Below are positions 3,513 to 24,015 of a stretch of 24,597 nucleotides of DNA, one piece after another; position 1 is the stretch's first letter; every line of letters begins with the position of its first letter. The notes beneath the pieces were generated by a model. The model was not told the origin of the DNA and did not search any database. It saw nothing but the letters and a program-made list of their open reading frames with translations. This DNA comes from a virus. The position numbers and the translations under genes were made by a program. The stretch lies in the IMG/VR virus record IMGVR_UViG_3300009011_000052, positions 1 through 24,597 of that record, one strand, 5' to 3'.

Positions 3513-3845
3513 ATGTGTACAAGAGTTCCAGTCAGTGTGAATCGTAAGCCTGTTACTATGTTTTCTAAGTCAGGAGCATTTCCATCGGGAGGGTGGTTTG
3601 TATTCAACGTACCTGACGAACCTGCTCCAGAGTATAGAACTAAGAAATCACAAGAGGTTTTATGGTGTCCCTACTGTGGTGAGTGGACTATATTCCAGCA
3701 ACGCTTTGATGAACGTGATGTGTATGACTGTAAAGGATACTGTGGATGGAGTAATACCAAAGACTTCCATGTACGTAAGGCAAACAGCCTATGGAATCAG
3801 AGTATTAAAGACGCAGTAGCCAATCGGTACAGAAAATACAAATAG
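3513..3845 (+). CDS. Small zinc-ribbon protein
   Basis: The 110-residue product has four cysteines arranged as a zinc ribbon: CPYC (52-55) and CKGYC (73-77), with aromatic and basic residues around them. The C-terminus is basic (NRYRKYK). I do not recognise a specific family. The ATG at 3513 follows AGGAGGG in the last codons of sbcD, two bases after its stop, so translation is probably coupled. Nucleic acid binding is likely for such a fold but is inference. Confidence 0.72.
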   Translation: MCTRVPVSVNRKPVTMFSKSGAFPSGGWFVFNVPDEPAPEYRTKKSQEVLWCPYCGEWTIFQQRFDERDVYDCKGYCGWSNTKDFHVRKANSLWNQSIKDAVANRYRKYK

Positions 3846-3856
3846 TGAAAACTTAG

Positions 3857-3890
3857 ACCTCTTACCATTTTATTTGGTAGGAGGTGTTTT
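3857..3890 (+). terminator. Hairpin whose 3' arm is the next gene's ribosome binding site
   Basis: CCTCTTACCA (3858-3867) pairs with TGGTAGGAGG (3875-3884), extended by one A-T pair, with one G-U and a seven-base loop; GTTTT follows. It has the form of an intrinsic terminator. Its 3' arm contains the TAGGAGG that serves the ATG at 3892, so when folded it would also hide that site. Confidence 0.7.
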
Positions 3891-3891
3891 C

Positions 3892-4134
3892 ATGAGAATC
3901 TTACATCAGAATAAGAAGAGGGTAAAGTTGGAAGTATCACCTGAGGAACTATTGCTGATACGACAAGCCCTCTTAAAAGAGCGTAATTATAGGAGTCGCA
4001 CATGGAAAGGTCTATCAGCTAGGTACCCTGAGGAACTCTTGTACCACGCTTTCATGGATGACTCATGTAAACGTATGGTCGGTGTAGTATCTAAGGGAAT
4101 TGAGCAGTTTAAGAATTGGGGAATACTAAAGTGA
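3892..4134 (+). CDS. Small hypothetical protein
   Basis: An 80-residue, basic, mostly helical protein with no recognised motif. The ATG at 3892 is chosen because TAGGAGG lies seven bases upstream; an in-frame TTG at 3874 lies inside the hairpin loop and has no ribosome binding site. The gene is bracketed by hairpins (3857-3890 and 4141-4176), so it may be expressed as its own unit or be attenuated. Function unknown. Confidence 0.7.
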   Translation: MRILHQNKKRVKLEVSPEELLLIRQALLKERNYRSRTWKGLSARYPEELLYHAFMDDSCKRMVGVVSKGIEQFKNWGILK

Positions 4135-4140
4135 TACTCT

Positions 4141-4176
4141 AGGTTCGGAGAACATTCTTCCGAACCTGTTTTATTT
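4141..4176 (+). terminator. Rho-independent terminator
   Basis: A perfect 9-bp stem, AGGTTCGGA (4141-4149) with TCCGAACCT (4159-4167), is followed by GTTTTATTT. It lies seven bases after the stop codon of the gene ending at 4134. Confidence 0.88.
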
Positions 4177-4198
4177 AATGTGAGAGGGGGAGGAAGCA

Positions 4199-4498
4199 AT
4201 GATTGAGGTAGACTTTAATGGAACAAAGTATGAGTTTATACCCCACGATGTAGACCTGACAGAGCAAGCAGGTAAGTATTGTAGAGCAACACACATCATC
4301 AAAGGGTTTGAAGAAGACATAGCACTTCTTATAGAGAAGAAGGGTACAGATATTAGTTTCTTCTTTGGGCTAATGGTTGACTTGGGAAGCATAGGAATGA
4401 TACATGGATTTGAAGATGATTATGTTAATCAAGAAGCTACAGAACTTGTGTTTTATGCTATTCAAAATGACATTATCATGTGGGAGGAAATAGGATGA
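4199..4498 (+). CDS. Hypothetical protein
   Basis: A 99-residue acidic protein that begins with a short beta-rich stretch (MIEVDFNGTKYEFIPHDVD) and continues as a mixed fold. There are no cysteine clusters or membrane helices, and I recognise no family. GGGGGAGG precedes the ATG at 4199. It is the first of a run of four to six overlapping small genes (4199-5661) between a terminator and sbcC. Its last codons overlap the next start (ATGA at 4495-4498). Confidence 0.72.
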   Translation: MIEVDFNGTKYEFIPHDVDLTEQAGKYCRATHIIKGFEEDIALLIEKKGTDISFFFGLMVDLGSIGMIHGFEDDYVNQEATELVFYAIQNDIIMWEEIG

Positions 4499-4734
4499 AT
4501 ATTGTTGATATCATTGTAAACGCTGACATAGGTGAGAGATTTAGAATGTCTGAACCTGCAATAGGTGAAGAGAGTGACGCATACAAGAAATGGTTAGGAC
4601 TAACTGTTGAGAAGGTTCTAGGTGGAGCAATCATAGTAGTAGACAAAAGTGGAGTAAAGCAATATGCAGAAGGTGACTTCCTTAACCTGTCGGGATTAGT
4701 AGTAGACTCTGAGTGGGAAAAGGTAGTGGGCTAA
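4495..4734 (+). CDS. Small hypothetical protein
   Basis: A 79-residue acidic protein starting MNIVDIIVNADIGERFRM. The ATG at 4495 has GGGAGG about six bases upstream; an in-frame GTG at 4480 lies upstream of that site and is rejected. The centre reads like a small beta-barrel (GLTVEKVLGGAIIVVDKSG), but I cannot assign a family. It is coupled to both neighbours: ATGA overlap with the gene before and TAATG overlap with the gene after. Confidence 0.7.
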   Translation: MNIVDIIVNADIGERFRMSEPAIGEESDAYKKWLGLTVEKVLGGAIIVVDKSGVKQYAEGDFLNLSGLVVDSEWEKVVG

Positions 4735-5662: not shown

Positions 5663-7579
5663 ATGGGTTTAAAGTTTGGAGTAGCAGAAGCAGAGTACTT
5701 CCTATCAATTGTAAAGAAAGTTACCTTTGATTTCCGTGATAGGGGCTTAGTCCTTATTAGTGGTGACAATAAAGATGATGATGCCTTTGAGAGTAATGGT
5801 GCAGGTAAGTCCACATTATTCTCTGAGACAATCGTGTACACTCTGTTTGGGGAAACTATTCGTGGATACAAAGGCAATGAGGTTATCAATGAAGAATATG
5901 GTAAGGGCACAAGAACCTCACTACAAGTATTCGATGATGATGTGGAGTATCTTATTGAAAGGCACCGTAAGCATAAGGAGCACAGCAACCATGTGCGTAT
6001 CTTCCGTAACGGTGAAAATGTTACTCCTAAGAGTGACAAGGATGCCAACCAATACATTATTGACCTTCTAGGTATTGATTATGTATCATTTATCAACTCT
6101 GTTATGTTCGGTCAGGGTATCACTAAGATGTTTGCTAGTGCTACTGACAGTGAACAGAAGAAGATTATGGAACGTATGTTGCAGATTGATATATTTGCAG
6201 GATGCCTAGAACAGGCTAAGAAAGAGCTTAAAGAGTGTAACAATGATATGGATTTGTTACAACATGCTATCTTTACTAGAACAAATACTCTTATTACACA
6301 GCGTGCTAATATTGAGAACCTACAAGAGAAGGAAGCTAGTATGGGCAAGCAGATAGAAGCTACTATCACTGAGTGTGACGAAAGAATAGCTGAGTATAAG
6401 TCTGAACTAGAAGATATGGAGACTACGGAAGACCTAGAGGAAAGCATTGCAAACCTAGATGCTCTAGCTGAAAAGGTACAGGCAAAGATTGACTCCTATG
6501 ACTCTATACAAGAGAGTAGAAACGAACTTGCTACTGACATGCAGGTACTACAGCGTGAGATGAAGGCACTAGAAAAAGAGTATACAGCAGATGGGAGAAA
6601 ACTAGCTGATGTTCAGTCAGGCAAAAACGTTCCAAAAACGTGTTCTGAGTGTGGGCAAGATTTACCTTTGGATGACACCACTCACATCGAAAATCACCTG
6701 AAAGACAATATCAAAAAAGCGATGTCTGAGCACAAGGAAAAGTCTGCTGAATTAGAAGAGTTGAAGGGGCTTGTTGCTAAGATTGATAAGAAGCTAGAGG
6801 GTAGAAAGAAGCAGGTAGACAACCTTCAACTCATTAAGGATAGTAAGGCAGAGAAGCGTGCTGATATTAGGCTTATTGAGAATAAGAAGAAGAACCTAGA
6901 AAGCAACATTGCTTCTAAGGAGAAAGAGAAAGAGCGTGCATTAGCCCTTAAGGACAAGACATATACAGACCTTATAGAGAAGGCTATCAAGGAAGCAGAG
7001 GAGACTAAGGAATTCATACAGGCTGATGAGAAAGCACTAGAGGAACTTAAGGAAGAAGCCAAGCTATATGAGTTCTGGGTTAACAGTTTCTCTAACAAGG
7101 GTATCAAGTCAGTACTTCTTGATAGTGTTACACCATTCCTTAATACTAGAGCTAATCACTACCTATCTAAGCTGGCTCCTTCTATTGAGGTTAAGTTCAA
7201 TACTCAGAAGACCCTAGCTAATGGTGAGAAGCGTGACCAGTTCTCAGTAGAGATTAAGAACCGTCATGGTGGAGGAGCATACAAGGGTAACAGTGGTGGG
7301 GAAAGACGTAGGATTGACCTAGCTGTTATTATGGCTTTGCAGGACTTAGTGGCTTCACGCTCTAACAAGGCTATTGACTTCATTCTGTATGATGAAGCAT
7401 TTGAAGGTATGGATGCTCTAGGCTGTGAACGCTTGATAGAGGTTCTCAAAGACAAGGCTAAGAGCGTAGGAACAATCATGGTTATCACCCACAATGACAG
7501 CCTTAAACAGCTATTTACTAAGACTGTTAAGGTAACTAAGTCAGGTGGAGCTACAGTTATTACGGAGGTGGCGGCATAG
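5663..7579 (+). CDS. sbcC: SbcC/Rad50-like SMC ATPase (T4 gp46 type)
   Basis: A 638-residue SMC-type ATPase, the size of T4 gp46 rather than the roughly 1000 residues of bacterial SbcC. In order: Walker A NGAGKST (45-51), a coiled coil to about residue 310, a zinc hook CSEC (327-330) followed by Gly, the returning coiled coil to about 470, the ABC signature SGGERRR (544-550), Walker B FILYDEAFEGMD (573-584) and a switch histidine in VITHND (His610). With the SbcD-like nuclease at 2419 it should form the Mre11-Rad50-type complex that processes DNA ends. The ATG at 5663 follows AGGGAGAGGA. The two subunits are separated here by about 2.1 kb of small genes. All active-site elements are intact. 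Confidence 0.95.
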   Translation: MGLKFGVAEAEYFLSIVKKVTFDFRDRGLVLISGDNKDDDAFESNGAGKSTLFSETIVYTLFGETIRGYKGNEVINEEYGKGTRTSLQVFDDDVEYLIERHRKHKEHSNHVRIFRNGENVTPKSDKDANQYIIDLLGIDYVSFINSVMFGQGITKMFASATDSEQKKIMERMLQIDIFAGCLEQAKKELKECNNDMDLLQHAIFTRTNTLITQRANIENLQEKEASMGKQIEATITECDERIAEYKSELEDMETTEDLEESIANLDALAEKVQAKIDSYDSIQESRNELATDMQVLQREMKALEKEYTADGRKLADVQSGKNVPKTCSECGQDLPLDDTTHIENHLKDNIKKAMSEHKEKSAELEELKGLVAKIDKKLEGRKKQVDNLQLIKDSKAEKRADIRLIENKKKNLESNIASKEKEKERALALKDKTYTDLIEKAIKEAEETKEFIQADEKALEELKEEAKLYEFWVNSFSNKGIKSVLLDSVTPFLNTRANHYLSKLAPSIEVKFNTQKTLANGEKRDQFSVEIKNRHGGGAYKGNSGGERRRIDLAVIMALQDLVASRSNKAIDFILYDEAFEGMDALGCERLIEVLKDKAKSVGTIMVITHNDSLKQLFTKTVKVTKSGGATVITEVAA

Positions 7580-13632: not shown

Positions 13633-13758
13633 ATGCTATCTACTGTTTCATAATGCCTGTCCATTTGATGTTTTCATTGATGTGGGGCAAAATCATTTTC
13701 AAGAGGGGCGCACACAAGAGCAACCCACTACAAAAACTAATCAAAAGGAGTGTTTCAA

Positions 13759-14472
13759 ATGGCTACAACTACTGGATACGAATACAAAGAAGAGGTTTAC
13801 ACTAACTTAGTGGAGTTATCACAAGCAATGGGGCTTTCTAAGCCACCTACAAAGAAGGAAGTTACTGAAGGTAAATATGCAGACGTAGTAAATGTAATTG
13901 ACCTTGATACAGAAGATGCAATTGAGGTAGCGCAGGAAGAGCAGTCTACAGACGCAGAGACTAAGCAAGAAGCTACTTCATCAGAAGAAACTGATACTGA
14001 GGAGTCTAATGGTGAGGTAGAAGCTAGTGAGGAGGAAGAAGCATGGGAGGATGGCTACCCTGCTAAGAAAGCTGGTGAAGATACACAGGAAGAAGCTAAT
14101 GCAGAAGATGTACTTGAAGTACTAGGTGAGATTGAAAGCTTAGATGAGTTTAAGGAGTTCTTTAAGGATTTGGATACTGATACAGCAGTTATCTGTGTAA
14201 ATGCCCTAGACTTGGAAATCAAGCCTACAGATAACCCTAATATCTACCGTATGAGATTGTCAATGGCTCTACAACGTCACCTATTCCCTGAGCACTTCAA
14301 GCCTAAGAAGTCTGAAAAGAAAACTAAATACGGTGACTATTCTACTGAGGAGCTTGAAGCTATTGCTAAGAAGAATAAGGTAGAGTTTGAAAATAACCCA
14401 CATGAGGGTATCCACCGTATGAGACTTATCATGGCTCTTAAGAAAAGTGGACATCTAGTGGAAAGTAAGTAA
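13759..14472 (+). CDS. Acidic protein with two C-terminal RMRLxMAL helix motifs
   Basis: A 237-residue protein in three parts. Residues 1-50 form a small domain (MATTTGYEYKEEVYTNLVEL start). Residues 51-117 are a highly acidic, disordered-looking stretch rich in Glu, Thr and Ala. The C-terminal half has two related helical motifs, about 140-174 (ending YRMRLSMALQRHL) and 193-229 (STEELEAIAKKNKVEFENNP, then HRMRLIMALKK). The second closely matches the end of the protein at 15838. The helix-extension-helix form resembles SAP/HeH/LEM-type small DNA- or protein-binding domains; this is a resemblance, not a match. The ATG at 13759 has AAAGGAG upstream. The gene stands alone between two terminators. 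The acidic region could mimic DNA or serve as a hub. Confidence 0.8.
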   Translation: MATTTGYEYKEEVYTNLVELSQAMGLSKPPTKKEVTEGKYADVVNVIDLDTEDAIEVAQEEQSTDAETKQEATSSEETDTEESNGEVEASEEEEAWEDGYPAKKAGEDTQEEANAEDVLEVLGEIESLDEFKEFFKDLDTDTAVICVNALDLEIKPTDNPNIYRMRLSMALQRHLFPEHFKPKKSEKKTKYGDYSTEELEAIAKKNKVEFENNPHEGIHRMRLIMALKKSGHLVESK

Positions 14473-15837: not shown

Positions 15838-16290
15838 ATGATAAACTTAGATGCAAAAGTACTGAAGGTATTAGAAGAGTCTAGTTGTTTTGGAATCGCA
15901 TTTGATGCTACTGCACCTGAATGTGCTATGTGTGACGTAAAATTAAACTGTAAGTCTAAGGTTGAGGGAGCTAACATTCCAACACCTACAACAAAGCCAA
16001 AAGTCAATAAGCCTGCTCCTAAACCTGACAAAGCTGACAAACCGGCTACTAAGAAGAAGGACTCAGCAGTTAAGAAGGAAGCTACAGCTAAGAAAGCTAC
16101 TACTGAGAAGAAAGCACCTGCTAAGAAGGCTACAAGCAAGCCTAGCGGTAATGCTCCAGACTTCAAAGATGTAAAGCTACCTGAATTAAGAGAGATAGCA
16201 GAGAAGGAAGGCGTAGAGTACAAAGAGTACGGAAACGATAACATCACACGCATGCGCCTAGTAATGGCTCTTAAAAAGCACTTCTCTTAA
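15838..16290 (+). CDS. Cys4 protein with Lys/Ala/Pro-rich tail and RMRLxMAL motif
   Basis: A 150-residue protein in three parts. The N-terminus has four cysteines in the order C17, C29, C32, C38 (CFGIAFDATAPECAMCDVKL), a pattern seen in small phage proteins and likely to bind zinc. Residues 45-105 are a Lys/Ala/Pro/Thr-rich, histone H1-like disordered tail. Residues 112-149 repeat the helical motif found twice in the protein at 13759 (LPELREIAEKEGVEY, then TRMRLVMALKK). The basic tail suggests DNA binding or compaction. The ATG at 15838 has GGGAGG upstream. It follows the sigma-like gene and ends the transcript before a terminator. Function is unknown; architecture is clear. Confidence 0.82.
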   Translation: MINLDAKVLKVLEESSCFGIAFDATAPECAMCDVKLNCKSKVEGANIPTPTTKPKVNKPAPKPDKADKPATKKKDSAVKKEATAKKATTEKKAPAKKATSKPSGNAPDFKDVKLPELREIAEKEGVEYKEYGNDNITRMRLVMALKKHFS

Positions 16291-17463: not shown

Positions 17464-17476
17464 TCCTTAGCCTTTT
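17447..17476. terminator. Bidirectional terminator between convergent units
   Basis: A fully palindromic stem, AAAAGGCTAAGGA (17447-17459) with TCCTTAGCCTTTT (17464-17476) around TTAA, has A-runs on one side and T-runs on the other, so it works in both directions. It contains the last codons of both the plus-strand gene (stop 17461-17463) and the minus-strand gene (stop 17467-17469). Confidence 0.93.
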
Positions 17477-18297
17477 AATATGCTCTCTAATCTATTCTTA
17501 AACTCTGAGTGAGAGCCAATAATGAACCTCAATGACCATTCATCAGTATACTTGGTAACTGAGTCTTTACGCTTAGTCAAACCCTCCTCTGTAAACAATA
17601 GGATTCGTGGGAATGATGGACTTTTGAATACCTTTGTCCATGGTTGCTTTAGCCACGATTTTGACAGGAAGTATTCTCTATACGAGTCAGTCTTATCCTT
17701 TAATTGCTGTACAGTTTCGGTAGCAAGGTCAACCTCCACAAATAGAGGATAACCCTTTCCATTATACTTAATAAAGCAAAAGATGTCAGGTATAATCTTT
17801 GTATCATTGTAATTATGCTTCTTCTCCACCTCATAGATTGTGACTGTTCCTCCTATCTCCTTCACAACCTCCTTAATCCTACATTCATATTCATTAATCA
17901 TAACCCTATGTTCCCACCCTTGACGCATACTTCTAGCCCCTTGCTCAGTGTAGTATATTGGTTTTGTATAGTTTTCTAGGTCAAGGAGTATCTGACCAGC
18001 TTTGTCTAAGCAAATGTGTTGTTGGCTAGACCCCTGCCCCAAGCCTACAGTGGGATATATCTTGTCTATAATGTGCTTTTGATAAAGTAGTTTCAATCTC
18101 TTATTAAGTCGGTCAGTAGAAGCGAACTCAGGGTACAGTCTTTCTATTTGGTCTCTACGTAGAATCCTACGATCCTTAATAAGCCTGATAAGCCCCATGT
18201 CACGCTCTGTAATATACTTGCAGTTATCACGCACCCATTCTCTTGTAACCTTCTTAACAATAGGACGATAGTACTTTCTGCTTGACGAAACCTCCAT
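17467..18297 (-). CDS. Replic_Relax-family protein
   Basis: A 276-residue protein matching the replication-relaxation (Replic_Relax) family of Gram-positive plasmids and conjugative elements. The N-terminal half (about 28-105) is a winged-helix region (ERDMGLIRLIKDRRILRRDQI...). The C-terminal half has the family hallmark PDIFCFI (170-176), then PLFVEVDLATET (184-195) and a KxxxY segment, which looks like a PD-(D/E)xK-type core. Family members were linked to plasmid replication and DNA relaxation; the biochemical role is not well settled. AGGAGGGG precedes the ATG, and the gene starts two bases after the ATPase gene stops, so it is the last gene of the operon. It may mark the DNA for the neighbouring ATPase; that is inference. 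Confidence 0.82.
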   Translation of the reverse strand: MEVSSSRKYYRPIVKKVTREWVRDNCKYITERDMGLIRLIKDRRILRRDQIERLYPEFASTDRLNKRLKLLYQKHIIDKIYPTVGLGQGSSQQHICLDKAGQILLDLENYTKPIYYTEQGARSMRQGWEHRVMINEYECRIKEVVKEIGGTVTIYEVEKKHNYNDTKIIPDIFCFIKYNGKGYPLFVEVDLATETVQQLKDKTDSYREYFLSKSWLKQPWTKVFKSPSFPRILLFTEEGLTKRKDSVTKYTDEWSLRFIIGSHSEFKNRLESILKG

Positions 18298-18299
18298 TT

Positions 18300-20999
18300 T
18301 TACCCCTCCTCTATAATGTCATCCATAATCTCAATAATTTCTAGGTCTGGCTCTTCACCGTTTGCTTCACATTTCTCCAAATAATTCTCTATTTCTTTTT
18401 CTAGTGACTTCCTAGTTGATTTGCGTTCATCTTCATCTTCAAAGGATTTAGGTTGTGAAAACATTTCTTCATCTTCTGAGCCATTTTCGGGCGTTAAAAC
18501 GTCATGCATACCAAACTCACCACTAGTCTTATATCTGAAGATTTCATCCATTACTTCTAGCTTTGGTCTACCTAGAAGTTCAGCACACTTAGGGAATAGG
18601 TCATCATTGTTGAATCTGTCATACCTATTCTCAGCCATATCTATAGCCTTAGCCATGAAAGCTGGTGTTGCTTCACCCTTAGCGCTATACATCTTAAGCT
18701 TGACTACTAGATGTTGCTTTGGCATCCCCTTTGCTATATCTGCTATCTTGAACTCAGGCTGTATTACAGACTTAAGCTCCTCTAGGTTATCTTCATCTGT
18801 TTGGAATATAAGGTAGTGTGGTCCAGCTTTACGTATCATTTTAGGCAAATCTCTATCAGTTTTCTTAAGTTGCTCCCACCCATGGAACATGAATATCAGA
18901 CCACATCTGTACTTTCTATAACGAGTTAACATATTTCTCCACCGCTCACTACCTTTGATGTAATGGTCAGGCTCATCTAGTAATAAGAAGCAAGGCTTCC
19001 TATCATCTTCATTGATAATGTCTTCTCTACTAATAATAGCTAGATTGAACTTAGCAATCAGGAATGATACCAGTGCAGTCTGTATGTTCTCACCTAGTGT
19101 TTCATTAGCTCTTACTAGAACCATGCACCCTTCATCCATCCATTTACGTATGTCAAATAGGTAGTCACCATTTTCGTCCTTCTTAGGCTTCTGTAGTATA
19201 AAGTTTTTGAGGGCTTTCTTACGCATTACAGGGGCTAATCGTCTGAAGGCTTCATCATATATCATTGCTCTATCCTCTTTCTTGTATCCATCGTGAAAGT
19301 TTTCCCAATCTGCACGTAGCTCAGGGTCTTCAATAGTAGGTATTACCTTACTTCTGAACTCAGCATTATTAAGCATGTTCTCAACGTCTTGGAGTGTAGC
19401 GTCTGGTGTAACAAAAACAGCTTTGACAGCGTTCTCAACCCAAACCCTAGCCCTCATGTTCAACGCATTTCCTGACACTAGCTCAATATAGGCAAGAATC
19501 TCTTCCACAACCAAGTCTTCGACTACATCAGTATTTCTACCTCTGAATATTTCATTCCAACCAATACCCATAGGCATCTCACTGTTAAGTAAGTCTACTA
19601 TTCTCACTCTATGTCGTTGGTCAGGTGATATTCTGTCTAGTACACGTTGTACAGATTTCCCATCAGCCGCATCTATAAGGAATACTCCATACCCTCTGTT
19701 AAAGGCATCTAAGGCAAATGATACAGCAAATGTAGTCTTACCGCTACCTGGCTCTCCTATAACCACACGTGGCATACAAAGTAGGTTCGGGTTCTTGCCT
19801 GAGAAGTATACCAGCTTATGTTCACCATCACTGTCTTCATACGTAGCAAAAGGTATTCCACCATCATCTTCAAATATTTCTTTTGGTACATCCGTTTCTC
19901 CTCTATGCTGTACCAGAGACAGCTCATTGTAGTGTTCAATCTGTGACTTTTGGTCAGGTACCTGCATTATCTTAGCCAACTCTAGGGAGCATAAGTAGTC
20001 TCCATTGAGATGTATACTCATCTTCCTCTCAGTAACCTTGTTAAGCTCTTTCTTCTTAATCCTAGGATTTGTTATCTTTTCTTCTACTAGCTTGTTATCA
20101 GCTTCTAAGGGGTCAAACCCTCCTGATATAGCACGTATCAAGGACTGTCTACGCTCCTTGTCCTCAGACTTAGCTACAACACGTATGTTAGCCTGAAATG
20201 CTTCTGACCTAGTTTTGAATGATGTACTCTTATTCTCTAAGTCCCCGTACTTAGTTTTATTCATCTCGGCTAGTTCTCTATTATTCTCCCATCCAGGAAT
20301 TACTAGGTCACCTAGTAGATTCATGAGTTCCTCAGCCACCATACCTACAACGTAGAGTGACTGATTCATGACCTCCTTAAAGGTTACTTTCTTACCCTTC
20401 TTCCTAGGGATTATGCCTGACTTCTTCATTCTATCTAAGCTATCTCTAGCTGTGTGGTTCCAACTGTTACTTTGTGGTCTTAAGCCTATTTGTAATAGTG
20501 CCATGTCATCTTCTTTTAGGAAATGTTTAGCGTTAAGGAATGAGTCTAAGGGGGAGTATGAATCCTTTGCTGTATTGAGGGATAATAGTGAGTTGTGTTC
20601 CATTGTGAGGTGTGTTATGTCTGTATTGTCTATGTCAAACTCTTGTAGGTAGTTGCTTACTTCTCGTACGTTACATTGCTTCCAAACCTTCATTACCTGT
20701 CTAGTTATAGACTCCTTAATGTTCTCTCTGTCAGGAACTACTAGGTAGAAGTGTATCTGACCCTTATGCAAGAATACTTCCCACCACACGTTGTATTCCG
20801 GTGTATAGGTTAAGCATCCTCCTGTAAGATTTATACGCCTTTCTAATGGTCTGAACAGCCTTGCAAATTCTGCTACTAACCATTTAACATTTTGGTTAGA
20901 GGTCATTCTACTAGGGGATATTTCAAGGACTGCATACCTGACTTCCTCCTTAGCAAACACTCTTATTCTAGTCTTCTCTTGGATGATTTCACCTTGCAT
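18300..20999 (-). CDS. VirD4/TraD/HerA-like DNA-translocation ATPase
   Basis: An 899-residue motor ATPase. An N-terminal domain (about 1-120, with YAVLEISPS and YNVWWEVFL...IHFYLVVP strands) resembles those of HerA/TraC-type transfer ATPases. The motor domain has Walker A GEPGSGKTT (415-423), an intact Walker B CFLLLDEPDHY (670-680), a segment RARVWVENAVKAVFVTP...TLQDVENML (516-542) typical of the TraD/HerA insert, and HGWEQL (706-711) as sensor-like. The C-terminal 80 residues are acidic and probably disordered, as in coupling proteins that bind substrate or relaxosome there. No transmembrane helix is visible, unlike classical VirD4, so membrane attachment would need a partner. The two small membrane proteins upstream are candidates. 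The ATG at 20999 has AGGAGG upstream. DNA or protein export is the likely role. Confidence 0.82.
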   Translation of the reverse strand: MQGEIIQEKTRIRVFAKEEVRYAVLEISPSRMTSNQNVKWLVAEFARLFRPLERRINLTGGCLTYTPEYNVWWEVFLHKGQIHFYLVVPDRENIKESITRQVMKVWKQCNVREVSNYLQEFDIDNTDITHLTMEHNSLLSLNTAKDSYSPLDSFLNAKHFLKEDDMALLQIGLRPQSNSWNHTARDSLDRMKKSGIIPRKKGKKVTFKEVMNQSLYVVGMVAEELMNLLGDLVIPGWENNRELAEMNKTKYGDLENKSTSFKTRSEAFQANIRVVAKSEDKERRQSLIRAISGGFDPLEADNKLVEEKITNPRIKKKELNKVTERKMSIHLNGDYLCSLELAKIMQVPDQKSQIEHYNELSLVQHRGETDVPKEIFEDDGGIPFATYEDSDGEHKLVYFSGKNPNLLCMPRVVIGEPGSGKTTFAVSFALDAFNRGYGVFLIDAADGKSVQRVLDRISPDQRHRVRIVDLLNSEMPMGIGWNEIFRGRNTDVVEDLVVEEILAYIELVSGNALNMRARVWVENAVKAVFVTPDATLQDVENMLNNAEFRSKVIPTIEDPELRADWENFHDGYKKEDRAMIYDEAFRRLAPVMRKKALKNFILQKPKKDENGDYLFDIRKWMDEGCMVLVRANETLGENIQTALVSFLIAKFNLAIISREDIINEDDRKPCFLLLDEPDHYIKGSERWRNMLTRYRKYRCGLIFMFHGWEQLKKTDRDLPKMIRKAGPHYLIFQTDEDNLEELKSVIQPEFKIADIAKGMPKQHLVVKLKMYSAKGEATPAFMAKAIDMAENRYDRFNNDDLFPKCAELLGRPKLEVMDEIFRYKTSGEFGMHDVLTPENGSEDEEMFSQPKSFEDEDERKSTRKSLEKEIENYLEKCEANGEEPDLEIIEIMDDIIEEG

Positions 21000-21010
21000 G
21001 ATAATACCTC

Positions 21011-21286
21011 CTAATGTATGATTTTGTCAATAATCTTAGGGATGATACCTACAGGTTCCATGATAACCTTAGTCATTTCTTCATTAGTAGGGGTTAGTGT
21101 CTTCTTGACTATCCCACCTACTTCATCTTTCAGCTCTAGCCATAATAGGTCTAATGCCCCTTTACTCATTAGGTATAGCCCATCTCCTAGAGTAGCAATG
21201 GCTCCAATGACCGCATCAGGTGCTATGAATACAGCAGTTCCTACCCAAATGGTAATTCGTATAGTCCACTTTATCTTTCCCAGCAT
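21011..21286 (-). CDS. Small membrane protein
   Basis: A 91-residue protein with a long hydrophobic stretch (about 7-40, WTIRITIWVGTAVFIAPDAV and onwards), one or two membrane helices, and an amphipathic C-terminus. It starts one base after the stop of the 43-residue protein and ends 11 bases before the ATPase start. The position suggests a membrane partner for the ATPase, like the small VirB3-type proteins of type IV secretion systems, but there is no sequence match to support a name. Confidence 0.75.
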   Translation of the reverse strand: MLGKIKWTIRITIWVGTAVFIAPDAVIGAIATLGDGLYLMSKGALDLLWLELKDEVGGIVKKTLTPTNEEMTKVIMEPVGIIPKIIDKIIH

Positions 21287-21287
21287 G

Positions 21288-21419
21288 CTACATGCCCCCT
21301 GTTAGGGAGACTACAACAGCGTTAACTGCTATAGCCATTAGTTTGATAATTCCCATACCCACAGTAACCACGATTGCAGAGCCTACATAAATAACCTTTT
21401 TGCTAGTTGTCTCATTCAT
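21288..21419 (-). CDS. Very small membrane protein (43 aa)
   Basis: A 43-residue protein, MNETTSKK then a hydrophobic stretch of about 30 residues rich in Val, Ile, Ala and Gly. Its start at 21419 has GAGGAGAG upstream, and it fits exactly between the ParR-like gene (15-base gap) and the next membrane-protein gene (one-base gap). Composition and size are like pilin-type or single-helix subunits of secretion systems. No family is recognised. Confidence 0.72.
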   Translation of the reverse strand: MNETTSKKVIYVGSAIVVTVGMGIIKLMAIAVNAVVVSLTGGM

Positions 21420-21433
21420 AGTTGACACTCTCC

Positions 21434-21829
21434 TCAGTTGTATAAGTTATTTAGCTTATTTTCTAAATCATCGTTGTCTTCCTCTGTATCCTCTACTTCT
21501 CCTAGGGATAAGAGGGAAGGTGGCTCCTTGTCTTTCTTTGTCGGTTTTTGTGTTACCTTTGTCTCACGAGGTGTTACATTTGTGGTCTCTTCTTGTTTCA
21601 CTTGGTCTTCTTTTGTAATACCTTGTGGGACAGATATTGTCTGACTTGGTGCTACAAAGCCCCTCTTGAAGTAGGAGTCGTCTGTGGGTACATCTGAATA
21701 CCCACTAGACTGCATTCCTAGTATGACCATTTCCCTAATGAAAGCACTCCTATCCCCCTCTAACTGGTCGAGGATAGGTGCTAACCATTCAGTTTTCTTG
21801 TTAAGCTTAAAGGAGTACTGTTTTGCCAT
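21434..21829 (-). CDS. parR: ParR-like ribbon-helix-helix adaptor
   Basis: A 131-residue protein that overlaps the end of the actin gene by 23 bases. The N-terminus has a basic beta strand YSFKLN (5-10), helix A (about 12-24) and helix B RSAFIREMVILGM (27-39), the ribbon-helix-helix layout of ParR-type plasmid adaptors, which bind centromere repeats. A long polar linker follows (41-105), then an acidic tail ending in a short amphipathic helix (DDLENKLNNLYN, 120-131); in known ParR proteins the C-terminus is what touches the ParM filament. The gene order actin then adaptor is that of ParMRC systems. The DNA site it binds is not established. Identity is inferred from fold pattern and position. 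Confidence 0.75.
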   Translation of the reverse strand: MAKQYSFKLNKKTEWLAPILDQLEGDRSAFIREMVILGMQSSGYSDVPTDDSYFKRGFVAPSQTISVPQGITKEDQVKQEETTNVTPRETKVTQKPTKKDKEPPSLLSLGEVEDTEEDNDDLENKLNNLYN

Positions 21830-22850
21830 AAGTTCTCACACCCCACTTATAGTATCCGTTTACTACTGCCCATTGTGGGTCAGGTAGCAACTCTGCATCA
21901 ATATGCTCCTTAATACCTTCAAATAGATTGGCACCACCGCCACCTGCTACTAATACCATCTCAATATCGTGTACTCCATCTTTCCACTTATTGAGAATAT
22001 CAGCCATCATCTTCTCAGAAGTAGCATCAAACGCATACTTGATTAGAGGTTTCATATCAAGGCGCTTACCACCTTTACGGAACTCTCCAGTTCTTACAAT
22101 TGCCTCTACTTCATATAAAGGAATCGTCTTTCCTAACTCTTCCTCTACACGGTCTGCAATAATCTGATATGCATAGTTCATTGCAACTTTGATAGAGAAT
22201 GTATGCTTCTCTACTGGTGACATTGCATCAACAACGTATACATCAGTAGTACCAAAGCCAGGGTCAATAACTGCAATAGTCTTACCTGCGATAGATTTAT
22301 CTCTAAAGTTGCCATCTTCATCTAGTAGGAAGTCTAGTAATGCTCCAAATGGTTGTGGGATAAACTTACCTTCATCTACGAAGACTTCACCTTGGATACC
22401 ACGCTGTCTATCAAACTCCACATGATAAGGGTGAACTTTACCTGTCTTAGTGGTTCCTAAGAACATCTTAGTAATGTCTTCTTTATACATATCATAGTGG
22501 CTTACTGGTAATCCTGAGATTAGCTTAGTCTCAAAGCTACCATGACCAAAGCCCTTAGCTAATGCTGTTCTTGCTAGAACATCAGTAACCTCACTGTTGA
22601 AACGCTTATCCTGTAGCGAGTGCATGATAACATCTGATTGGTCAATAGCTAAGTCTGATACAAAGCTGGAAGACATCTTATCAGTTGCCTTATAGAAGAT
22701 AATATCATCCTTATCCTTATTACCCATATCTAGGTCACGGAAGCGTAGCTTCTTTCCATGACCCACTACAGATTTCATAATATGCTTTCTACCGTTAACA
22801 ATACTTTTTGTATACAAAAACCCTAAATCAATAGCTGAAAGATTCATCAT
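21807..22850 (-). CDS. parM: ParM-like actin ATPase
   Basis: A 347-residue actin-fold ATPase with the phosphate-1 loop AIDLGFLYTK (6-15), the connect-type ISGLP (111-115), phosphate-2 VIDPGFGTTDV (194-204) and adenosine motif VLVAGGGGANLF (299-310). Size and motifs match plasmid-segregation actins (ParM/StbA/Alp). Such proteins polymerise with ATP and push plasmid copies apart through an adaptor, here the ParR-like protein directly downstream. Two ATGs lie at 22848-22850 and 22845-22847; GGAGG is about ten bases upstream. A short inverted repeat GTGA-n5-TCAC sits in the leader (about 22868-22880). It is unusual that the gene is embedded in a membrane-transport operon rather than standing alone with its adaptor. 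Confidence 0.92.
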   Translation of the reverse strand: MMNLSAIDLGFLYTKSIVNGRKHIMKSVVGHGKKLRFRDLDMGNKDKDDIIFYKATDKMSSSFVSDLAIDQSDVIMHSLQDKRFNSEVTDVLARTALAKGFGHGSFETKLISGLPVSHYDMYKEDITKMFLGTTKTGKVHPYHVEFDRQRGIQGEVFVDEGKFIPQPFGALLDFLLDEDGNFRDKSIAGKTIAVIDPGFGTTDVYVVDAMSPVEKHTFSIKVAMNYAYQIIADRVEEELGKTIPLYEVEAIVRTGEFRKGGKRLDMKPLIKYAFDATSEKMMADILNKWKDGVHDIEMVLVAGGGGANLFEGIKEHIDAELLPDPQWAVVNGYYKWGVRTYGKTVLL

Positions 22851-22920
22851 TTATAATTACCTCCGTTTGTGATAGTGTCACTTTGAAAAAACCCTAATCT
22901 CTTAAGTTCTCTCCCACCTA

Positions 22921-23403
22921 TTAGAAATGTACCGCCCCCTTCAACATACTAGCAATCCATCTAAGGAAGGCAAAGAACGCTGGTAGTAGTGCTATTCCAA
23001 TATAAGCGTAACCTACTTGCTTGATACGGTTCCATCCTGCATCCTTATTCTTACCTGTTGCCATCATTACACAACCTATTAATGCATAGAACCAAAGGAT
23101 AGGCTCTGCAATGGCAGTAAACACATCTATAATTTCTGTAAATCCTTGTCGTATTTGCTCTCCTCCGCCTATATGATTTGCGGCTACCATTAAACCTTCA
23201 TGGCTCTTATCTGCAAATGCTCTTTTGGCGATACGGACACCACCTACTGCAAGGACAATAGCTCTAGTAATCAAAGGTACCATCTTCGTCTTACGAACTT
23301 CTTCTAATTCACCTGTATGCTTACTTTTAACAGCCATCTTTGTCTCTATTACTGGCTTTCTAAAGACTTCTCTACCACCAACGTTAATAATCATCTCTGT
23401 CAT
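22921..23403 (-). CDS. Two-helix membrane protein resembling VirB2/TrbC-type subunits
   Basis: This 160-residue protein is the first gene of the minus-strand operon; AAGGAGGT lies seven bases before its ATG. It has a charged N-terminal region of about 40 residues, a weakly hydrophobic segment (41-59) and two strong membrane helices, about 94-116 and 130-154, joined by a short basic loop (GKNKDAGWNRIKQ). This hairpin with a basic loop is the layout of VirB2/TrbC pilins and of Maff2-type proteins of Gram-positive conjugative elements. The match is one of topology more than of sequence, and the N-terminal region is not a typical cleaved signal. It could be the pore or surface subunit of the system whose ATPase lies at 18300. 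Confidence 0.68.
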   Translation of the reverse strand: MTEMIINVGGREVFRKPVIETKMAVKSKHTGELEEVRKTKMVPLITRAIVLAVGGVRIAKRAFADKSHEGLMVAANHIGGGEQIRQGFTEIIDVFTAIAEPILWFYALIGCVMMATGKNKDAGWNRIKQVGYAYIGIALLPAFFAFLRWIASMLKGAVHF

Positions 23404-23826: not shown

Positions 23827-23870
23827 AACCTAGACGAATTGCTCTCCAGCGTTCGGAAAAAACAAAAAGG

Positions 23871-23973
23871 AAGGGAGCACTGACGTTAACTCACTCAGGC
23901 TAGCAACGTATATCACCTCCACGGATGGTATCGGATGACTAAGTACTAGTGAGTGGGCTGAGGTAGCTCCCTT
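23871..23973 (+). ncRNA. Candidate structured RNA
   Basis: AAGGGAGC (23871-23878) pairs perfectly with GCTCCCTT (23966-23973), closing a 103-base segment. Inside, ACTCACT (23889-23895) pairs perfectly with AGTGAGT (23948-23954), and ACGTT/AACGT (23883-23887 and 23905-23909) can form an alternative hairpin. There is no reading frame with a ribosome binding site in this segment. It lies between the 36-aa gene and a promoter for the gene at 24039. It matches no riboswitch class I know. A small RNA or a leader element is possible; strand is assumed. Confidence 0.4.
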
Positions 23974-23986
23974 ATTTGTGTATTAT

Positions 23987-24015
23987 CTGACCTGCATTAT
24001 TCTGATATTTATATT
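23987..24015 (+). promoter_or_regulatory. Candidate promoter for the gene at 24039
   Basis: CTGACC (23987-23992) and TATATT (24010-24015) are 17 bases apart. The -10 box matches the consensus at five of six positions and the -35 at four of six. Transcription would begin about ten bases upstream of the AGGAGGTGG that serves the ATG at 24039. Confidence 0.5.

Follow-up and report, generated by a model that had tools for sequence, protein, structure and literature searches.

We suggest that a seven-gene operon of SPO1-like phages encodes a membrane-anchored, conjugation-derived machine for handling DNA (for its transport or its anchoring), to which a ParM-ParR pair would deliver the phage DNA. 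From sequence and predicted structure we give this reading a probability of about 0.5. The core of the module, which consists of a putative ribbon-helix-helix protein, a pilin-like protein and an ATPase, recurs across nine ATPase clusters and in many unrelated Bacillus phages. The coupling of the actin pair to the ATPase is also recurrent but it is not obligatory, ParM being an optional part. Parts of a conjugation machine are unexpected in tailed phages, and SPO1 is a classical model phage with a tractable laboratory host. The core is found in many Bacillales phages and is uncharacterised in SPO1. If the reading is right, actin-based DNA movement would be linked to a membrane DNA motor, and phages would have either a transfer route or a stage, after replication and before packaging, at which their DNA is handled; neither is described in the literature that we found.

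The operon in SPO1-like phages

The window, i.e., the whole stretch of DNA that was analysed (24,597 nucleotides), is a 24.6 kb fragment of the genome of an SPO1-like phage (Herelleviridae), a Bacillus phage of the virulent type. It is filed as a virus contig in IMG/VR, and its genes outside the operon belong to phage replication and the phage head (DnaB, SbcC/D-like, primase, dUTPase, sigma-like and head decoration proteins). The operon together with its flanks, which match phrog_15477 and phrog_15783 (27.1-like, head decoration), is colinear with SPO1 27.1-29.2. The preliminary description had taken the element for a plasmid; this origin is ruled out by the PHROG matches, the virus record and the colinearity with SPO1. 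The seven minus-strand genes that it had described between 17467 and 23403 were all found in place, and they are, in the order of transcription:

22921..23403, minus strand: pilin-like (T4SS-pilin-like, VirB2/TrbC-like) membrane protein, 160 aa, orthologue of SPO1 gp29.1
22851..22920, minus strand: gap before parM, 70 nt, possible internal promoter, no iterons
21807..22850, minus strand: ParM-family actin, 347 aa, orthologue of SPO1 gp27.9
21434..21829, minus strand: ParR-like adaptor, 131 aa, 23 nt shared with parM, orthologue of SPO1 gp27.8
21288..21428, minus strand: small protein with a single transmembrane segment, 46 aa from a GTG start or 43 aa from an internal ATG, orthologue of SPO1 gp27.7
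21011..21286, minus strand: 91-aa membrane protein, in the position of SPO1 gp27.5/27.6
18300..20999, minus strand: VirB4-like (predicted), HerA-superfamily ATPase, 899 aa, orthologue of SPO1 gp27.4
17467..18297, minus strand: Replic_Relax protein, 276 aa, PD-(D/E)xK-like motif pattern, orthologue of SPO1 gp27.3

The tight packing was likewise borne out, with junctions of -23, 5, 1, 11 and 2 nt and the gap before parM as the sole wider spacing. Hexamers similar to SPO1 middle promoters, with 1-3 mismatches, are seen as a weak signal in this gap in four SPO1-like phages, and scans for sigma-70 promoters and terminators gave signals that were not above chance. In SPO1, L018 and L019 (the latter two being IMG/VR contigs) this gap also holds a conserved motif, TTGACAACTGAATA, that is missing from the window. 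On the minus strand at window positions 23855-23990 there is a long stem-loop with a GCUCCC end and a U-rich tail (z-score -2.3), which has no match in Rfam and may be a terminator or a leader RNA ahead of the operon. Elsewhere in the window, the proteins encoded at 13750-14472 and 15838-16290 have in common a short repeated segment of the LREIAEKEGVEY..RMRLVMALKK type, which recalls a SAP or Rho-N-like domain.

The operon corresponds to SPO1 genes 29.1, 27.9, 27.8, 27.7-27.5, 27.4 and 27.3, with the order and strand shared and the orthologues 33-61% identical. A search for the same gene order in other plasmids had been proposed; the order does recur, but in phages. It is complete in SPO1, L018 and L019, and the order and strand of the four larger genes (those of the Replic_Relax protein, the ATPase, ParM and the pilin-like protein) are constant in 18 of 18 annotated SPO1-type records, while beyond this group ParM is optional. 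When the window was compared with SPO1, L018 and L019, the five larger genes were 54-83% identical at second codon positions and 32-46% at third positions; the 46-aa gene shows a similar, less clear pattern. All operon genes tested are under purifying selection, and since this holds for each of them the module is no relic in the SPO1-like lineage. As the gene order is shared by SPO1, the two IMG/VR contigs and the 18 SPO1-type records, and the genes are under such selection, the order cannot be put down to chance. In phiBsKO1-1, an unannotated SPO1-type record beyond the 18, the whole module appears as short broken frames, the result of sequencing errors or decay.

Identity of the encoded proteins

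Profile searches of each protein, which had been proposed as a check, placed ParM and the Replic_Relax protein above the Pfam cut-offs, whereas the pilin-like protein of the window stayed under the cut-off for T4SS_pilin (0.015) and the ATPase was left without a Pfam family. The identity of ParM is secure on sequence: it matches ALP_N at 9.8e-20, MreB-like_C at 6.2e-16 and phrog_691 (partition protein) at 2.5e-65, and solved ParM structures at 6e-13 and weaker. The Replic_Relax protein is equally secure by its profile (PF13814, 2.4e-19, 70.6 bits against a cut-off of 25.3) and also matches phrog_9381, 'replication initiation by nicking'. In the Pfam search no HUH or Tyr relaxase was matched in the window operon, the Replic_Relax family being found in its stead. 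The residues that are invariant in the family alignment (D171, E188-x-D190, K202 and Y206) appear to resemble a PD-(D/E)xK nuclease pattern.

The ParR-like assignment rests on the gene's position, its overlap with parM and a protein alignment (A10). The L018 orthologue matches Plasmid_stab_B (StbB/ParR) at 0.0012, under the cut-off, and in hhalign the SPO1-type ParR and the RHH-like family of the other loci share a register with a score that is not significant. No parC iterons or repeats were found near parM, the 70-nt gap included, or upstream of the window operon, and with no parC found the ParMR part is not a complete ParMRC system. In the Bacillus contig L050, direct repeats with 11-nt spacing form a parC-like array directly upstream of parM (6265-6346).

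The pilin-like protein of the window is weak alone. Within its family of 19, however, T4SS_pilin is matched at E<=0.05 by 17 proteins (best 2.7e-7) and TrbC/VirB2 by seven (best 6.2e-7), and these profiles make a convincing case that the family is related to TrbC/VirB2 and to T4SS pilins. The predicted model has two confident helices which form a C-terminal hairpin, and a fold search of the PDB with this model returned no relative. The signal-peptidase motif (AxA) was dropped as evidence for a pilin, being present in 26 of 29 sequences with 23.6 expected from shuffles. Regarding the small membrane proteins, of which two are encoded in the window and three in SPO1, L018 and L019, the 46-aa protein matches phrog_15178 at 9e-10 and its SPO1 homologue at 1e-8; the 91-aa protein has a single hydrophobic segment and no homologue detectable in the Pfam, PHROG or SPO1 comparisons.

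The ATPase has a P-loop near residues 415-422 and a Walker B DE at 675-676. It is a member of phrog_5156 (6.6e-260), no curated Pfam family is matched above cut-off, FtsK_SpoIIIE included, and profile searches of the PDB weakly reach HerA/DptH/VirB4-class chains and nothing stronger. A model was predicted in AlphaFold2 from 28 sequences (pLDDT 77), and its best 13 matches in the PDB were all R388 VirB4, with E down to 2.5e-15 and ~900 aligned columns; the VirD4 protein TrwB ranked after it with ~430 columns. TM-scores normalised to the target are 0.68 for the VirB4 C-domain (4ag6), ~0.6 for TrwB and <0.5 for HerA. Normalised to the whole query they are ~0.3, which suggests that the domain arrangement differs or that the model is imprecise. 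The predicted structure is thus VirB4-like over its whole length, and the VirD4/TraD-like identity first given to this protein was abandoned, as the structure search puts VirB4 first. With VirB4 as the top structural match and no match to FtsK_SpoIIIE, an FtsK/SpoIIIE identity was rejected too. A large terminase was considered from a weak match to phrog_2666 'terminase' and set aside, this family including a VirB4-type protein; its PHROGs label 'terminase large subunit' is probably wrong, because its member gp155 of phage G is a TraG/VirB4-type ATPase.

Spread of the module and linkage of the actin pair

By clade-wise alignments 57 ATPases were gathered from annotated phages, plasmids, IMG/VR and bacterial genomes. 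Scans of viral contigs with single proteins or with all-lineage alignments gave no match, and the clade-wise alignments did. At 45% identity the ATPases fall into nine clusters from Bacillales phages, prophages and plasmids, and the pilin-like gene lies directly upstream of the ATPase in six of them, with weak matches at this place in others. Most loci, ParM-less ones included, also have upstream a small protein that carries the motif 'NFSxYVKxLI'; we read it as a probable ribbon-helix-helix protein from its sequence, and one relative gives a weak match to an RHH-type family. An M23 endopeptidase, a wall enzyme, is inserted in the module in five lineages, in all cases from one subfamily. The ATPase occurs twice in the 99.7 kb plasmid NZ_CP104066.1, at a distance of ~48.9 kb, and two smaller matches have the same spacing; the record may be a dimer of a ~49 kb phage-plasmid.

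Phage G shows this family in a richer setting. Within ~8 kb (85-93 kb) it carries a T4SS_pilin (gp150), TrbL (gp153), a two-TM protein (gp154), the TraG/VirB4-type gp155, a phrog_5156-type ATPase (gp156) and Replic_Relax (gp146), and the T4SS_pilin, TrbL and VirB4-type matches are all above cut-off. By sequence, gp150-gp156 would make a near-minimal T4SS-like set, and the cluster ties the ATPase family of the operon to genuine T4SS genes. Another parallel is found in Bastillevirinae (L062, L063 and L067; Goe3 and Bobb), where ParM, a small gene, an M23 endopeptidase of the subfamily found in the ATPase module, two membrane proteins and a true FtsK/SpoIIIE stand in one stretch. This order parallels that of the operon with a different motor.

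The arrangement that first drew attention to the operon, in which an actin-adaptor pair is flanked by a VirB2/TrbC-like membrane protein on one side and a translocase-type ATPase on the other, was seen, and its linkage recurs. Whole-record searches of 27 ATPase-bearing records found ParM in 13 (one each), at 1-3.1 kb from the ATPase where the distance was measured and on the opposite strand in one of them (L043). In MMB025 ParM (3770-4589) is split into two ORFs by a frame break. ParM adjoins the ATPase in 13 of the 14 genomes that have both, the exception being phage G with 295 kb between them; the chance of random placement within <=5 kb, taken as a product over five lineages, is ~1.5e-5 as a rough figure. 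Independent occurrence of the pair and the ATPase, which had been named as an observation that would speak against a joint role, was partly found. Fourteen of the 27 records have no ParM, and several phages have ParMR without this ATPase. One of them is KKP_3916, whose ParMR comes nearest to that of the SPO1 group (45%) among those from elsewhere; yet where both are present they are linked in all but the one genome. In API480 and MTATph1, too, the surroundings of ParM showed no ATPase of this family. In the ParM tree, which has long branches, the SPO1-type proteins group with KKP_3916 and the D6E/Tyrovirus type forms a separate supported clade; a topology that unites every linked ParM in a single clade is rejected (p-AU 1e-4). 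The linked ParMs thus have no common clade of their own, and the actin pair has joined or left the module more than once.

Possible function and comparison with known systems

How these parts might act together can be pictured as follows. The pilin-like and small proteins would form a membrane complex on which a hexamer of the ATPase would be seated. ParR would bind the phage DNA, and ParM filaments would carry or push it to the complex, where the ATPase could then move the DNA across the membrane or anchor it there, and the Replic_Relax protein may relax or nick it. During infection the likely use would be to position and hold replicated phage genomes at the membrane, or to export them, with the actin pair as an add-on to the core. 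The Pfam searches recognised none of the seven operon proteins as VirB6, VirB8, VirB10, a separate VirD4 or a classical relaxase, and TrbL/VirB6 was found in phage G only. A complete canonical channel is therefore not encoded in the SPO1-type operon, which is not a complete conjugative T4SS and resembles part of one joined to ParMR. Since the equivalents of VirB6, VirB8 and VirD4 are missing, we favor positioning or anchoring, perhaps with translocation, over full conjugation.

One other explanation, which we hold to be possible at about half the weight of the first, is maintenance as a plasmid prophage or in a carrier state, the phage genome being held as a segregated plasmid by the action of ParMR, Replic_Relax and the ATPase; in strictly lytic phages this would mean pseudolysogeny or inheritance from a temperate ancestor. 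Related gene sets were so read in Novomoskovsk and Bolokhovo (PMC9658697), Izhevsk (PMC7685451) and Kirov (PMC10454425), a Xer recombinase adjoins the module in PJN02, and plasmid prophages have ParMR as a standard component (PMC8026635). Yet partition has no need of a VirB4-like ATPase, a pilin-like protein or a wall hydrolase, the core occurs without any ParM, the genes are under purifying selection, and SPO1 is described as lytic in the excerpt used of PMC10531801.

That unrelated plasmid-derived genes were simply gathered in one module of a phage genome is unlikely. ParM and the ATPase are indeed found apart in many phages, and in phage G they lie far from each other, but the adjacency in 13 of 14 genomes, the repeated association of ParMs that are not sisters and the parallel order of ParM, small gene, M23, membrane proteins and FtsK in Bastillevirinae all argue against such a coincidence. 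Quite unlikely, too, is the passage of phage DNA from an infected cell to its neighbour by a conjugation-like channel: VirB2-like, VirB4-like and relaxation-type proteins and, in relatives, an M23 wall hydrolase do share one operon, and phage G has TrbL/VirB6 in addition, together with another ATPase of the VirB4 type, but SPO1-type operons have no recognisable VirB6, VirB8 or VirD4, a lytic phage is already spread by its virions, and no report of transfer was found in the literature searched. Similarly unlikely is its boldest form, in which lytic SPO1-type phages would build a reduced, actin-fed T4SS that exports their DNA to neighbour cells as a virion-independent way of spread.

The positioning or anchoring machine that we prefer can be compared with several known systems. 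Parts of the module were already noticed in siphoviruses, as plasmid-prophage genes; a description of the module in full or of how widely it occurs, or one that treats the SPO1 operon as T4SS-like, was not found in the literature searched, whose scope did not include the SPO1 genome paper. SPO1 27.3-27.9 and 29.1 (Okubovirus) share orthologues, order and strand with the operon, whereas in the records and literature searched these genes are annotated singly, as hypothetical, partition or replication genes, and a description as a T4SS-like unit was not found. In Tyrovirus a single stretch, gp11-18, comprises ParM, a ParG-like RHH protein, a protein of T4SS type and Replic_Relax, and its authors regarded this stretch as plasmid-like and possibly derived from a conjugative plasmid (PMC9703825). 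In Novomoskovsk and Bolokhovo, TrbC/VirB2 stands with RHH, FtsK-like and Replic_Relax proteins as possible remnants of a plasmid prophage (PMC9658697), and Izhevsk (PMC7685451) and Kirov (PMC10454425) have similar gene sets with a similar reading. The Tyrovirus and Novomoskovsk/Bolokhovo phages differ in being siphoviruses or temperate, and their genes were read as those of a conjugative plasmid or plasmid prophage with no survey across phages. AlpC of prophage CGP3 is likewise actin-like, encoded by a phage and in the service of viral DNA, and the excerpt used of that paper (PMC4446434) reports no linkage to a translocase or pilin. With R388 TrwK/VirB4 and the VirB2 of T4SS the operon would share the ATPase fold over its whole length, as predicted, and the pilin family similarity, at ~10% sequence identity; it differs in having no recognised VirB6/8/10, VirD4 or classical relaxase and in the addition of ParMR. 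Finally, R1-type ParMRC also has a ParM actin with an overlapping downstream adaptor gene, whereas in the operon no iterated parC was found and the pair is embedded in a larger set of genes.
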